DNA of 49,133 nucleotides from the NCBI GenBank assembly GCA_018715745.1, contig DVLA01000055.1, positions 1 to 49,133 on the forward strand. Reading direction: 5' to 3'. Position 1 is the stretch's first letter. Every line of letters starts with the position of its first letter. This document shows positions 5,598-12,946 of this stretch, piece by piece. Source of the stretch: Candidatus Coprenecus stercoripullorum. GTDB taxonomy: Bacteria > Bacteroidota > Bacteroidia > Bacteroidales > UBA932. The notes under the pieces were generated by a model that did not search any database, was not told the DNA's origin, and was given only the letters and a program-made list of their open reading frames with translations. The translations under genes were made by a program, and so were the position numbers.

Positions 5598-6242
5598 TTA
5601 CCGTTTTGCCGAATACAGGAAATTGTGGCCGTCGTGGCATATCTCGATGATGCCCCAGTGGACAAGCAGGGAAAGCAGGCGGACGGCATTTTTTCCAGGT
5701 ACGGCGGTGCGTCTGCATATCTGCTGAAAGGTTAGTCCGTTGCCGGATGCTATGGTGTCGAGTATCTCCCGTTCCTGTGCCGTATAGTTCAAAGTATGGG
5801 GAATATCCCTGGCAGCGCACTTCCATGCGCCGATATGTACGGCTGTAGCCAGTATGTTTTCATCTGCGATACGTACATAGGCCAGCCAGCGGCCATCGCT
5901 GTTCCGTACCATAACCGGCTTTGCAGGGGCAGGCGGTACCTGTACGACCAGGACCTGTCTGCCGTCGGCCATATATCTTTCTATTCCGACATTTACCTCC
6001 GGGCAGCAGTAGATGCTCGCTGCAGTGTCTATCATGTAGATTTCCTCTTCACTGCGCACTCCGGCTATATTCCCGTTGTCCTTTACACCTATAAGGAGAC
6101 GGCCACCGTCGGTGTTTGAAAAGGCCGAAAGGGTGCGGGCAATCTTGCGTGAGTCGGATATCTCGAATTTGAAATCCTGATGGATATGTTCCCCTTCGGC
6201 TATCAGCGAGTGTATGTATGCCGAAGCATCCTGCGCTTTCAT
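5598..6242 (-). CDS. AlbA_2 (Schlafen-type) putative DNA-binding domain protein with C-terminal winged-helix-like region
   Basis: EGEHIHQDFKFEISDSRKIARTLSAFSNTDGGRLLIGVKDNGNIAGV is AlbA_2-like; C-terminus (LTFQQICRRTAVPGKNAVRLLSLLVHWGII) looks like a wHTH. Confidence 0.85.
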   Translation of the reverse strand: MKAQDASAYIHSLIAEGEHIHQDFKFEISDSRKIARTLSAFSNTDGGRLLIGVKDNGNIAGVRSEEEIYMIDTAASIYCCPEVNVGIERYMADGRQVLVVQVPPAPAKPVMVRNSDGRWLAYVRIADENILATAVHIGAWKCAARDIPHTLNYTAQEREILDTIASGNGLTFQQICRRTAVPGKNAVRLLSLLVHWGIIEICHDGHNFLYSAKR

Positions 6243-6577
6243 TGCATGGAAGCCTTGTCCCTGTCGTAGTGGGGCATTCCATCCGGTATCACGATGGAAA
6301 ATTCTACCAGTCCGGCTGTCTTTCCGTCTTCATCATACCATGGGGTCTGGTATATCAGCTTCTTTTGCCCTTTTTTCGTTATGGTGTATGCATTGGAGGA
6401 TGACTCCGAAAGAAGTCTGTCTATTATGGAGCGTGAACGCTCGTTGTGACAACCCATTATGTTTTTGCCAAGAACATTGCCGTTGGTCTCTACGGACTTG
6501 TCGTTCATGTATATTACCTTGCCTTCAGCATCGCACACCGTTATGGCGCAGTTGAGTTTTTCAGCCCAGTCTTTCAT
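6239..6577 (-). CDS. Stand-alone PAS domain protein
   Basis: AITVCDAEGKVIYMNDKSVETNG...LGKNIMGCH...KKGQKKLIYQTPWYDEDGKTAGLVEFSIVIP PAS-like pattern; ATGA overlap with the downstream AlbA_2 gene. Confidence 0.82.
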   Translation of the reverse strand: MKDWAEKLNCAITVCDAEGKVIYMNDKSVETNGNVLGKNIMGCHNERSRSIIDRLLSESSSNAYTITKKGQKKLIYQTPWYDEDGKTAGLVEFSIVIPDGMPHYDRDKASMQ

Positions 6578-8976: not shown

Positions 8977-8996
8977 TATATTTGTGCGTATATTTG
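8977..8996 (+). promoter_or_regulatory. Two tandem Bacteroidota-type -7 boxes TATATTTG (8977-8984 and 8989-8996), with TTG at 8954-8956 as partial -33 match for the first
   Basis: Match to TAnnTTTG read directly upstream of the ATG at 9002. Confidence 0.6.
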
Positions 8997-9001
8997 CAGA
9001 A

Positions 9002-9793
9002 ATGATAAGGGCTTTGTTTTTTGATATTGACGGTACGCTGGTGAGTTTCAATACCCACAGGATACCGGAATCTGCCGTGGAAGCCCTTTCGGCAGCAAAA
9101 GGGAAAGGGCTGTCCATATTCATATCGACAGGAAGGCCCTGGCCCATGGTAAACAATGTAAACAATCTGGCTGATGCAGGCCGGTATATAGACGGTTACA
9201 TTACGGTCAACGGGGCCTATTGTTTTATCGGTGACAGGACTGTCTCCATAACCCCTATTCCCGAAGGGGACGTAGCCTTATCGGTTGACAAGTCGGATTT
9301 TTACCGTTATCCCATACTGATTGTCGGGAAGGACAGGGTCGCAATGCGCAATGGAAATGAGTTTGCCAGCCGGATAATGAGTGACATACTTAATGTTGGA
9401 CCGGAATTGTGGTCTGCACCTGTAGAAGAGGTCCTTTCCGATGATGTACTGCAACTTACTCCATTTGTTCCCGAAGTCGGGGAGGCAGGGTTTATGGAAG
9501 GCCTTTCAGGAAGCCATGCTGCGCGTTGGCACGAGGCATTCATAGATGTGACGGCCAACGGGGCGGACAAGGGGAGTGCCATGGAGACCATGTGCATGGC
9601 AACCGGCATATTGCCGTCGCAGGCTATGGCTTTCGGTGACGGCGGAAACGATATTGCGATTATCAGGAAGGCAGGGATAGGCGTGGCTATGGGAAATGCG
9701 TCCGTCTATGTAAAGGACGCCGCTGATTATGTCACCCGGGATGTGGACAGTGACGGCCTGTATTATGCGTTGGAACATTGGAATGTAATATGA
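9002..9793 (+). CDS. HAD superfamily hydrolase, Cof-type phosphatase
   Basis: MIRALFFDIDGTLVSFNTHRIPESAVEAL, STGRPWPMV, MAFGDGGNDIAIIRKAGIGVAMGNA; start trimmed from 8942. Confidence 0.93.
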   Translation: MIRALFFDIDGTLVSFNTHRIPESAVEALSAAKGKGLSIFISTGRPWPMVNNVNNLADAGRYIDGYITVNGAYCFIGDRTVSITPIPEGDVALSVDKSDFYRYPILIVGKDRVAMRNGNEFASRIMSDILNVGPELWSAPVEEVLSDDVLQLTPFVPEVGEAGFMEGLSGSHAARWHEAFIDVTANGADKGSAMETMCMATGILPSQAMAFGDGGNDIAIIRKAGIGVAMGNASVYVKDAADYVTRDVDSDGLYYALEHWNVI

Positions 9794-10071
9794 AAATGAC
9801 AGTTAAGATATGCGTGGGAAGCTCCTGTCATCTTAAAGGCTCGCCTGATGTAATAGAGGTCATGCAGGAGATAATAAAAAAGTATGGGGTCGGGGACCGG
9901 ATAGAACTGCAGGCTACGTTCTGTCTGGGCTTTTGTGCTGAAGGCGTATCCATGCAGGTTGATCCTGGAGAACCCTCGGAAGACGGAGTATACTGCCTGC
10001 ACGGCGTAAACAAGTTCAATGCGGAAGAGAAGTTTTTATCTGAAATATTCCCTAAGCTGACTGACGTATGA
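9790..10071 (+). CDS. Thioredoxin-like [2Fe-2S] ferredoxin / NuoE-like small protein
   Basis: KICVGSSCHLKG ... ATFCLGFCAEGVSMQVD four-Cys pattern; 4-bp overlaps with both neighbours. Confidence 0.88.
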   Translation: MKMTVKICVGSSCHLKGSPDVIEVMQEIIKKYGVGDRIELQATFCLGFCAEGVSMQVDPGEPSEDGVYCLHGVNKFNAEEKFLSEIFPKLTDV

Positions 10072-11783
10072 AAGAGTATCTTGATTTTAAGAAAGCCCGG
10101 TGCAAGGACTGCTACAAGTGCCTGCGGGACTGTCCTGTCAAGGCCATAGAGGTTAAGGACCATCAGGCAAGGATAATAAAGGAGAGATGTATTCTTTGCG
10201 GACGCTGTACCGTAGTATGCCCGCAGAATGCCAAGATTGTGCATAGTGAGAAGGATGTTGTCGAAGATCTGCTGCTTTCAGGGGCTGAAGTGGTGGCAAG
10301 CGTGGCCCCTTCTTTTGTATCCTCTTTCCATATAGGCAGTTTCGCCGCAATGGAGAAAGTCCTTTACAAAATCGGATTTTCCTTTGCGGAGGAGACGTCG
10401 GTAGGGGCCAATGTGGTTACGAAAGAGTACGCGAGGCTGATGAGTACAGGCAAGTATTCAAATTTTATTACATCCGCCTGTCCGGCCCTCTGCCGCCTGA
10501 TTCAGGAGTATCATCCCGATGCCTTGAAGTATCTGGCCCAGGTGGATTCGCCCATGGTGGCCCATGCCAAGATTATCAAGGCCGAGCATCCTCAGGCGAA
10601 AATAGTGTTTATCGGCCCGTGCATAGCCAAGAAAAGGGAGGCGTATGAGAGCGGGCTTGTAGACGGGGTGCTTACTTTCGAGGATCTCAGGGCCCTTATG
10701 GTTGAAAGGGGGCTTGTTTTCGACGAGGCGGATTCGTGGGGCGGTACCCCGAGCTGCAGGACCGGTTATGCAAACAAATCAAAGGCTTATCCTATACGCA
10801 GGGGTATAATCCATTCGTTTGAAAGACGTCCTGCCGGATACGAATATTTTGCCGTGGACGGGCCTGAAAGGTGTGTTACGGTGTTGGAGAATATCGACAA
10901 GGTGCAGGGCGTGTTTTTCGAGATGAACATGTGCGAGAATGCTTGCGTGGGCGGGCCGTGCAGCATGGTAGACGAGGGTGGAGCGGTAAAGGCCGCTTTC
11001 GACGTGCGCACTTATGTACGCAAGGAATGCGAGTCCATGCCGCCTGAAAGGGATGACCTGCAATTGCCGGATGTGAATATCGCAAAAGCCTATCCGAAAA
11101 TAGGCGGGACCGGCAGTATGCCTACGGAAGAGCAGATCATCGAGATTCTGAGGAAGACAGGGAAGACGAGGCCGGAGGATGAACTGGATTGCGGGGCGTG
11201 CGGATACCGTTCGTGCAGGGAAAAGGCCTGGGCCGTATTCAACGGTTATGCGGGAATAGAGATATGCCTGCCGTTCATGAGGGAAAGGGCGGAGTCCATG
11301 TCCTATGAGATTATCCATAACTCACCAGAAGGAATCGTGGTCATAGACAGGGATATGAATATCGTAGACATTAATGCCAAGGCCAAAGAGCTTCTCGGCA
11401 TTACGGCTGTCAGCCTGAAGGGTATGCCTGCGGTGGACTTTTTCAACCCGTCGGAGTTCCTGATAGCTTATTCGGAGGGCAAACCTTTGGTTCACAAGCG
11501 TATATATGTTATGGAGACAAAGAAGCATATCGATTTGTCCATAAGCATATTGAAAAATAACGACATTCTCTTCGGCATAATGAAGGATGTGACTGATCAG
11601 GTTTGTTATAACGAAAGACTGTCGAAGATGAAGATGGAAACCCTGGTGACGACGGATGAGATGATAAAGAAACAAATGCGGGTTGCACAGGAGATAGCAT
11701 CCCTGCTCGGAGAGACTACGGCGGAGACCAAGGTGGCTTTGCTTAAACTTAAGAAAACGCTTCAACAGGAAGAAGATAAATGA
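10068..11783 (+). CDS. Putative sensory [FeFe]-hydrogenase (HydS-like, group C): 2x[4Fe-4S] ferredoxin domain, H-cluster domain, Cys-rich Fe-S domain, PAS domain, C-terminal helix
   Basis: CKDCYKCLRDCPVKAI and CILCGRCTVVCP; H-cluster motifs TSACPAL, GPCIAKKREAYE, EMNMCENACVGGPCS; CGACGYRSCREKA; PAS-like SYEIIHNSPEGIVVIDRDMNIVDINAKAKELLG. Confidence 0.9.
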   Translation: MKEYLDFKKARCKDCYKCLRDCPVKAIEVKDHQARIIKERCILCGRCTVVCPQNAKIVHSEKDVVEDLLLSGAEVVASVAPSFVSSFHIGSFAAMEKVLYKIGFSFAEETSVGANVVTKEYARLMSTGKYSNFITSACPALCRLIQEYHPDALKYLAQVDSPMVAHAKIIKAEHPQAKIVFIGPCIAKKREAYESGLVDGVLTFEDLRALMVERGLVFDEADSWGGTPSCRTGYANKSKAYPIRRGIIHSFERRPAGYEYFAVDGPERCVTVLENIDKVQGVFFEMNMCENACVGGPCSMVDEGGAVKAAFDVRTYVRKECESMPPERDDLQLPDVNIAKAYPKIGGTGSMPTEEQIIEILRKTGKTRPEDELDCGACGYRSCREKAWAVFNGYAGIEICLPFMRERAESMSYEIIHNSPEGIVVIDRDMNIVDINAKAKELLGITAVSLKGMPAVDFFNPSEFLIAYSEGKPLVHKRIYVMETKKHIDLSISILKNNDILFGIMKDVTDQVCYNERLSKMKMETLVTTDEMIKKQMRVAQEIASLLGETTAETKVALLKLKKTLQQEEDK

Positions 11784-12946
11784 TGACCGACCCATTTGTA
11801 GAGTACGGATATGTCTCTTTGAACAAGTACGGAGAAGAGCTTTGCGGCGACAAGGTTGAATGTACTTCCAGCCACGGGCATATTACCGTGGTTCTCGCGG
11901 ACGGGCTGGGCAGCGGTGTGAAGGCTAACATATTGTCTACCTTGTCTTCCAAGATATTGTGTACAATGGTTGACAATGATATGCCGATTGAAGAGTGTGT
12001 GGAGACCATGATACAGACCCTTCCGGTATGCAAGGTGCGGGGGGTGGCGTATTCGACATTCTCTGTCATACATGTGGACATGGAAGGCAGGGGCAATCTT
12101 TTCGAATTCGACAACCCGCAGGCAATATATTATCATGACGGGCATTGCCGGGATTTCGAGAGGACACCTATGGATGTGCTGGGCAAGAAGGTGTACCATA
12201 CGAAGCTCGCCCTTGAGGAAAATGATGCCGTGCTGATAATGTCCGACGGTACGATACATGCCGGTATCGGTATGGTACTGAATTTCGGGTGGGACAGGAA
12301 AGAGATAATGGAGCATCTCGACAGGAACATCAAGCCTGGGATGTCCGCCCGTTGTATAGCATGGTTGCTGGCATCGGCATGCAATGACCTGTATATGGAC
12401 AAGCCCGGGGACGATACTACCGTTGCCGCATTGAGGTTGCGCAGGGCCTGCCGCGTCCATCTGATGGTCGGCCCTCCGGTAGACAAGGAAAAGGATGACT
12501 ACTATGTCTCCCGTTTCATGGAAGGGAACTGCAAGAAGATAGTATGCGGCGGAACGACATCGCAGGTTGTATCACGCTATCTCAAGACTTCCGTGAGGAC
12601 CAGTCTCGACTTTCCGGACAAGGATGTGCCCCCCATAGGGTATATAGACGGTATAGACCTTACGACGGAAGGTGTAATAACGTTAAGGAAGCTGTTGGAC
12701 CTGTGCGATAAATATGTTTCATCCAATGACCTTTCCCCCAAGACGTTCAACAAGAAAGACGGGGCGTCCCTGCTGGCGGAGATGCTGCTTGAGGAAGCCA
12801 CGCACGTTACCTTTTTCGTCGGACAGGGCATGAACAAGGCCCATCAGGGGCTGCCTATCGACATTACCATGAAGCTGAAACTTGTGGAAAGACTTGCAGC
12901 GAACCTGGAAGCGGCGGGGAAAGTGGTGGAGATACACTATATGTGA
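11780..12946 (+). CDS. SpoIIE/PP2C-type serine/threonine phosphatase with C-terminal extension
   Basis: LADGLGSG, MSDGTIHAG, PGDDTTVAALRL metal-binding Asp motifs; about 165 further residues after the phosphatase domain. Confidence 0.88.
   Translation: MMTDPFVEYGYVSLNKYGEELCGDKVECTSSHGHITVVLADGLGSGVKANILSTLSSKILCTMVDNDMPIEECVETMIQTLPVCKVRGVAYSTFSVIHVDMEGRGNLFEFDNPQAIYYHDGHCRDFERTPMDVLGKKVYHTKLALEENDAVLIMSDGTIHAGIGMVLNFGWDRKEIMEHLDRNIKPGMSARCIAWLLASACNDLYMDKPGDDTTVAALRLRRACRVHLMVGPPVDKEKDDYYVSRFMEGNCKKIVCGGTTSQVVSRYLKTSVRTSLDFPDKDVPPIGYIDGIDLTTEGVITLRKLLDLCDKYVSSNDLSPKTFNKKDGASLLAEMLLEEATHVTFFVGQGMNKAHQGLPIDITMKLKLVERLAANLEAAGKVVEIHYM

Follow-up and report, generated by a model that had tools for sequence, protein, structure and literature searches.

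A stand-alone module with a putative group C3 sensory [FeFe]-hydrogenase and a PP2C-type phosphatase in Candidatus Coprenecus stercoripullorum

We describe a gene module in a stretch of 49,133 nucleotides from Candidatus Coprenecus stercoripullorum (assembly GCA_018715745.1, contig DVLA01000055.1), hereafter the window, which is contig C41 of a genome of 1.69 Mb that is 86% complete. The close relatives of this genome are Bacteroidales, and the nearest one with a Candidatus name is Candidatus Coprenecus pullistercoris. Positions 9790-12946 of the plus strand encode a NuoE-like [2Fe-2S] protein, a putative sensory [FeFe]-hydrogenase (HydS) and a SpoIIE/PP2C-type phosphatase. We consider it probable (about 0.62) that these three genes form a group C3 sensor of the HfsB/HydS kind with its NuoE-like partner, acting on the phosphatase in the way proposed below. 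The arrangement as such is already known (HydDB group C3; hfsABCD) and modules of this type are common in Clostridia, group C3 hydrogenases being widespread in gut and rumen fermenters. What is new here is the stand-alone genomic setting, together with two unexplored conserved elements, a C-terminal helix of HydS and a C-terminal domain of the phosphatase; otherwise the module is an ordinary member of group C3.

Gene content and class of the sensor

The initial annotation had described four genes chained by ATGA overlaps, and this layout was borne out. Four plus-strand open reading frames without internal stops (9002-9793, 9790-10071, 10068-11783 and 11780-12946) are joined by 4-bp ATGA overlaps at 9790, 10068 and 11780, which were read in the window sequence. 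Their Pfam domains are, in order, a HAD Hydrolase_3 domain, 2Fe-2S_thioredx, Fer4 with Fe_hyd_lg_C, FeS and PAS, and SpoIIE. The exact overlaps are not kept in relatives, where the spacing between the HydS and PP2C genes lies mostly between -17 and +30 (-8, -4 and -1 being common) and that between the NuoE-like and HydS genes varies widely. Since overlap lengths vary in this way, the ATGA overlaps point to co-expression and are no special feature of the module.

HydS (10068-11783) has two N-terminal [4Fe-4S] clusters, an H-domain, a C-terminal Cx2Cx4Cx16C [4Fe-4S] motif (residues 375-400, 11190-11267; PF04060), a PAS domain (residues 408-508, 11289-11591; PF00989, also recognised from the order of strands and helices in the structure model) and a C-terminal helix. 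The four H-cluster cysteines are Cys138 (10479-10481), which follows Ala137 at the position of CpI C299, Cys185 (10620-10622), which lies in G183-P184-C185 and thus has a glycine at the M353 position, and Cys289 and Cys293 (10932-10946), which lie close to Asn287 at the M497 position. All four are invariant among 52 HydS homologues, as are C375, C378, C383 and C400 of the C-terminal motif. C299, M353 and M497 are the three positions that are changed in sensory enzymes, with Ala, Gly and Ser in TmHydS of Thermotoga maritima (PMC10055695). This group C enzyme, compared here by its published residues, shares with the window HydS the two [4Fe-4S] clusters, the Ala/Gly pair at C299/M353 and the PAS domain; it differs at the M497 position, where the window protein has Asn instead of Ser. 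Residue 137 (10476-10478), the proton-transfer position, is Ala in 24 of 52 phosphatase-linked HydS and Cys in another 24, the published share of Cys among sensory enzymes being far lower (17%; PMC10055695).

The combination of the Cx2Cx4Cx16C motif with a PAS domain is the layout of group C (PMC8163306). HydS remained well below the curated cut-offs for group B (174.5 vs 450 bits, TIGR04105) and group A (62.2 vs 405.95 bits, TIGR02512), which rules out either identity. Group D enzymes have no PAS domain and carry Ser/Thr at the M353 position, whereas the window HydS has a PAS domain and Gly183. In a tree of 90 sequences, whose groups were labelled from gene context, curated models and motifs and which contained no named group C reference such as TmHydS or HfsB, the HydS types were set apart with strong support, which was 100/100 for the split from group A, 99/92 for that from group B and 99/97 for that from the group D-like sequences. 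The proposal that this is a group C-type enzyme was thus upheld, and the placement in catalytic group A that would have spoken against it did not occur. On these sequence features and the phosphatase gene next to it we assign the window HydS to HydDB group C3, an already-named class listed as 'phosphatase-linked (putative)' (PMC5037454). Like other members, it is a sensory-type HydS beside a Ser/Thr phosphatase gene; nothing essential sets it apart, except that its genus is one of Bacteroidales without an adjacent catalytic hydrogenase. The group D enzyme TamHydS and a second HydS of the window genome (on contig C39) share with it a C-terminal FeS domain and a proposed sensory role, but group D proteins lack the PAS domain, occur with a histidine-kinase-like ATPase near HydABC and form a separate clade.

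The most conserved segment of HydS lies in its C-terminal helix. Residues 509-570 (11592-11777) are predicted as a single helix, modelled less confidently (predicted local distance difference test, pLDDT, about 71-81) than the protein as a whole (mean 91). In its core, residues 531-560 (11658-11747), mean column identity is 0.75 vs 0.54 for the H-domain, with Q541 and G548 invariant. A relaxed motif for this helix was present throughout the 115 full-length phosphatase-type HydS, and three kinase-fused and four group D-like proteins lacked it. A stricter first pattern matched 103 of the 115, and the remaining 12 carry the motif by eye. One further sequence, assigned to the kinase-fused class by its best match, also has the motif; it is cut at the edge of its locus and has a NuoE-like gene upstream.

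The two other products of the module have conserved residues as well. The first (9790-10071, PF01257) is a short NuoE/HydC-like protein of thioredoxin fold, in which C8, C13, C45 and C49 are invariant in 14 homologues. The phosphatase (11780-12946, PF07228, 49.5 bits) has the metal-site aspartates D41, D211 and D212, which are invariant, and D156, which is nearly so. It begins straight with the catalytic domain and has no sensor or linker of the RsbU/RsbP type in cis. Its residues 222-388 (12443-12946) form an unannotated alpha/beta domain without a Pfam match, modelled at a mean pLDDT of 90.5 and with 12 invariant columns in 56 sequences. A Foldseek search with this domain returned no match below an E value of 0.001 (best 0.0087); methylglyoxal synthases reached probabilities up to 0.96, but with TM scores below 0.5 and E values above 0.008. 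Profile alignment (hhalign) with methylglyoxal synthases reached a probability of 43% along a CGGTT/CTGTT stretch, the control reaching 0.9%, and a sequence search of the Protein Data Bank with the domain profile gave two weak, unhelpful matches. A methylglyoxal-synthase-like nature of the domain is a lead only.

Conservation and genomic setting of the module

We compared 99 related loci, a few of which share one genome, and limited the counts of direct neighbours to the loci testable at that flank. A NuoE-like gene stands directly upstream of HydS at 94 of 96 loci and a PP2C gene directly downstream at 94 of 95, so that the order NuoE-like, HydS, PP2C is kept far beyond chance and the NuoE-like protein has to be counted as a constant part of the module. 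The initial annotation had suggested a check of the synteny of all four genes across Bacteroidota and had regarded both the HAD and the NuoE-like proteins as less obviously explained. The linkage of HydS to the phosphatase is indeed conserved, and synteny extends to the NuoE-like gene; none of the 99 loci has a counterpart of the HAD gene. After PP2C comes a group B-type hydrogenase at 63 of the 99 loci and HydABC at 4, and Rex (26/99) and AdhE (28/99) are frequent neighbours. A second Bacteroidota lineage, with 31-33% identity, has the same gene order. In further Bacteroidota lineages HydS stands beside HydABC; its partner there is PP2C in some and, in others, a cis-fused histidine kinase with response regulators nearby. 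Three loci (L057-L059) carry the latter C1-like version, in which HydS is joined to HisKA/HATPase domains, as confirmed for L058, with genes for a response regulator and for a hybrid kinase downstream of HydABC.

The nearest described counterparts are hfsABCD of Thermoanaerobacterium and the hydS-hydA2 cluster of Ruminococcus albus, in which a PAS-bearing HydS (HfsB) is followed by a serine phosphatase (HfsC) (PMC5707799, PMC11837493, PMC6776011). HydS, phosphatase and hydrogenase follow one another in hfsABCD as they do at many of the related loci, and in R. albus adhE is clustered with them, too (PMC11837493, PMC6776011). The HfsA gene precedes HfsB as the NuoE-like gene precedes the window HydS, a likeness in position. 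Both clusters end with a hydrogenase gene (hfsD or hydA2), whereas the window has none, nor rex or adhE beside the module; conversely, only the window has a HAD gene upstream.

This stand-alone setting is a property of the genus. HydS occurs in 16 of 19 genus genomes, the window genome included, and no hydrogenase follows PP2C in the window or in any genus mate examined. None of the 19 encodes a protein closely related to the operonic hydrogenase; the group B-type enzyme that each of them has, encoded elsewhere, shares about 40% identity with it. The median ratio of non-synonymous to synonymous substitution rates, calculated among genus mates from few unsaturated pairs, is about 0.04 for all three module genes, compared with 0.11 for the adjacent DPP4 gene and 0.06 for a neighbouring peptidase-like gene. 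The module is therefore under strong purifying selection, and since this holds where no hydrogenase adjoins it, it appears to be functional alone. The absence of hydrogenase, rex and adhE genes beside it separates its signalling function from the usual neighbours.

The means to mature and use H-clusters lie elsewhere in the genome. HydE and HydF are encoded on contig C95 and HydG on C50, each scoring higher than its equivalog cut-off, in line with the earlier suggestion of maturation in trans, and the search for a catalytic hydrogenase that had also been suggested found HydA with HydB and HydC on C39 and a group B enzyme on C86 (519 bits vs a cut-off of 450). The PAS-less group D-like HydS lies on C39 with ATPase and DRTGG proteins, in a run (L008, G000:C39, 9859-18146) that reads DRTGG, ATPase, group D-like HydS and, further on, HydB, HydA and HydC. 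Within the genus it tracks the window module (16 genomes with both, 3 with neither); a family-wide tally by hand gave 37 genomes with both, 9 with only the group C and 45 with only the group D type, uncorrected for relatedness and with no functional claim.

Bacteroidales HydS of the window type form one clade (100/96) inside an otherwise Clostridia set. A single group of all PP2C-linked Bacteroidota HydS was rejected (approximately unbiased test, p = 1.8e-6; groups named after seeing the tree). The nesting of these sequences among those of Clostridia is most simply explained by a lateral transfer into Bacteroidales from that class, which appears likely. Most sequences come from metagenome bins; the window-genus loci nonetheless have conserved Bacteroidales flanks.

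A possible signalling route and its alternatives

We propose that the H-cluster of HydS is tuned to sensing over turnover and would equilibrate with dihydrogen (H2) and with electrons that enter through the N-terminal clusters, probably with the small [2Fe-2S] protein as redox partner. A conformational change may then run through the C-terminal [4Fe-4S]/PAS region into the long helix, which would dock on the separately encoded PP2C and gate its activity. In RsbU-type phosphatases the gating is done by coiled-coil linkers (PMC12143880), and since the window PP2C has no sensor or linker of its own, we infer that the HydS helix might do in trans what the linkers of RsbU/RsbP do. In both systems a PAS domain and a helical linker would gate a PP2C domain, but in the window the sensor and its helix make up one protein and the phosphatase, with its extra C-terminal domain, is a second one. 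HydS would keep the phosphatase off at low H2 and free it at high H2, which may shift electron disposal between H2 and reduced products; without an adjacent catalytic hydrogenase in the genus, this output would have to act in trans. The direction of control is proposed because strains deleted for hfsA or hfsB show a higher ethanol yield and more adhE transcript, unlike those deleted for hfsC, hfsD or the whole operon (PMC5707799). The proposal as a whole also agrees with data from R. albus, where co-culture with an H2 consumer strongly lowers expression of the HydS cluster (PMC6776011).

Several points weigh against this proposal. Our literature search found no published experiment with H2-dependent phosphatase activity and no report of a group C3 hydrogenase sensing H2 in the cell, and we know of no phosphatase substrate for group C3 modules. 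In addition, hfsD alone in a delta-hfsABCD strain yields the ethanol phenotype (PMC11837493), so that this phenotype can arise without the phosphatase and the argument on direction is weakened. Finally, H2 leaves the C-terminal cluster unreduced in group D TamHydS (PMC13104023), which makes an electron relay doubtful and favours a conformational signal.

The signal might instead be general redox poise, with reduced ferredoxin or NADH read through the [2Fe-2S] protein and HydS serving as a relay that feeds PAS and PP2C. The dedicated NuoE-like carrier beside HydS and the frequency of Rex and AdhE among the neighbours agree with this idea; a pure redox relay, however, would hardly need the complete and strictly conserved H-cluster site, and Rex went undetected in the window genome at its present completeness, so that we regard it as unlikely, if worth keeping in mind. 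Distinctly unlikely, in our view, is that HydS senses no H2 but acts as a slow hydrogenase or as a redox enzyme, with the small [2Fe-2S] protein as its partner, while PP2C regulates something else. Its H-cluster cysteines are all intact, the Cys for proton transfer is retained in half of the family, a NuoE-like partner is a typical electron carrier, and HfsABC might be a functional hydrogenase without HfsD (PMC13277313). Yet Ala137, Gly183 and Asn287 stand at positions where mutation cuts group A turnover (PMC10055695), catalysis leaves the PAS domain and the helix with its invariant residues unexplained, and HydS of related clades has a histidine kinase in cis, an output that is clearly signalling.

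As to the target, a conventional partner switch, in which PP2C dephosphorylates an RsbV-like STAS protein, would fit the SpoIIE family and the one RsbW/RsbV-like pair of the window genome (contig C31). A free-standing STAS protein is absent, however, from 7 of the 16 module-bearing genus genomes, some of them 95-97% complete, although incompleteness makes some absences uncertain; one (G529) has no STAS protein and another (G450) only one of 577 aa. RsbV thus seems not to be a universal substrate and is unsupported as the general PP2C target. Since the window genome also has a second SpoIIE phosphatase, of response-regulator type (contig C55), which is the likelier RsbV partner, a partner switch seems very improbable. 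The sensor-phosphatase reading can be extended to a phosphatase with two inputs, gated in trans by the HydS helix and binding a phosphorylated metabolite through a divergent methylglyoxal-synthase-like domain; the module, uncoupled from a neighbouring hydrogenase in this genus, might then control the distant hydrogenases of the cell via a phosphoprotein other than RsbV. This extension is speculative, and we think it improbable. The candidates are nevertheless narrowed: the conserved helix offers a concrete docking hypothesis, RsbV is unlikely as a universal target and the phosphatase has a conserved domain that had gone unrecognised.

The HAD gene, flanks and further observations

The first gene of the run (9002-9793) encodes a Cof-type HAD-IIB phosphatase (PF08282, 153.7 bits; TIGR00099, 143.9 bits, cut-off 137). 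It shares direction and an ATGA overlap with the module in this genome, which would suit a joint function of all four genes. In genus mates, however, the same slot is occupied at 11 loci by an aminopeptidase P-like (Xaa-Pro-peptidase-like) gene, whose identity was judged by eye and not taken from a model, and because the HAD gene is found at none of the related loci, it is probably a passenger, a lineage-specific neighbour of the module. On synteny we reject it as a functional module member, and a four-gene unit is largely refuted and scarcely credible.

The neighbours of the run are a DPP4 gene, which is divergent, and a DUF3108 gene, which is convergent. The sequence TAnnTTTG is the -7 promoter consensus of Bacteroidales. 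Two TATATTTG boxes resembling it (8977-8996, plus strand) stand 5' of the HAD gene and are a candidate operon promoter by pattern match only. Scans for sigma-70-type promoters (9 promoter-like sites vs 5.8 expected) and terminators (2 vs 3.4 expected) were uninformative. A Rex operator sought upstream gave no convincing match (the best had 5 mismatches of 14), a search of the window genome for Rex itself gave none, and PADLOC returned no relevant match. On the minus strand, at 5598-6577, a 112-aa PAS/sCache-like protein is encoded with a 4-bp overlap with a gene for a Schlafen AlbA_2 and helix-turn-helix protein; this PAS/sCache-like gene stays beside DPP4 in most genus mates examined.

Some related loci differ in ways worth recording. 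One Bacteroidales genome has two neighbouring HydS-PP2C pairs (L060, 4687-11856), and at one contig edge (L013, G148:C132:4-1701) the HydS frame apparently contains one in-frame TAG. Many Clostridia loci (L105, L111, L125, L127, L134 and others) have two NuoE-like genes in tandem, with a gene of about 249 aa between AdhE and NuoE-like. Four of them (L105, L125, L127 and L134) carry a long recurring fermentation cluster, Rex-AdhE-(249 aa)-NuoE-HydS-PP2C-HydA, which suggests that redox control through Rex and H2 control through HydS bear on the same outputs.

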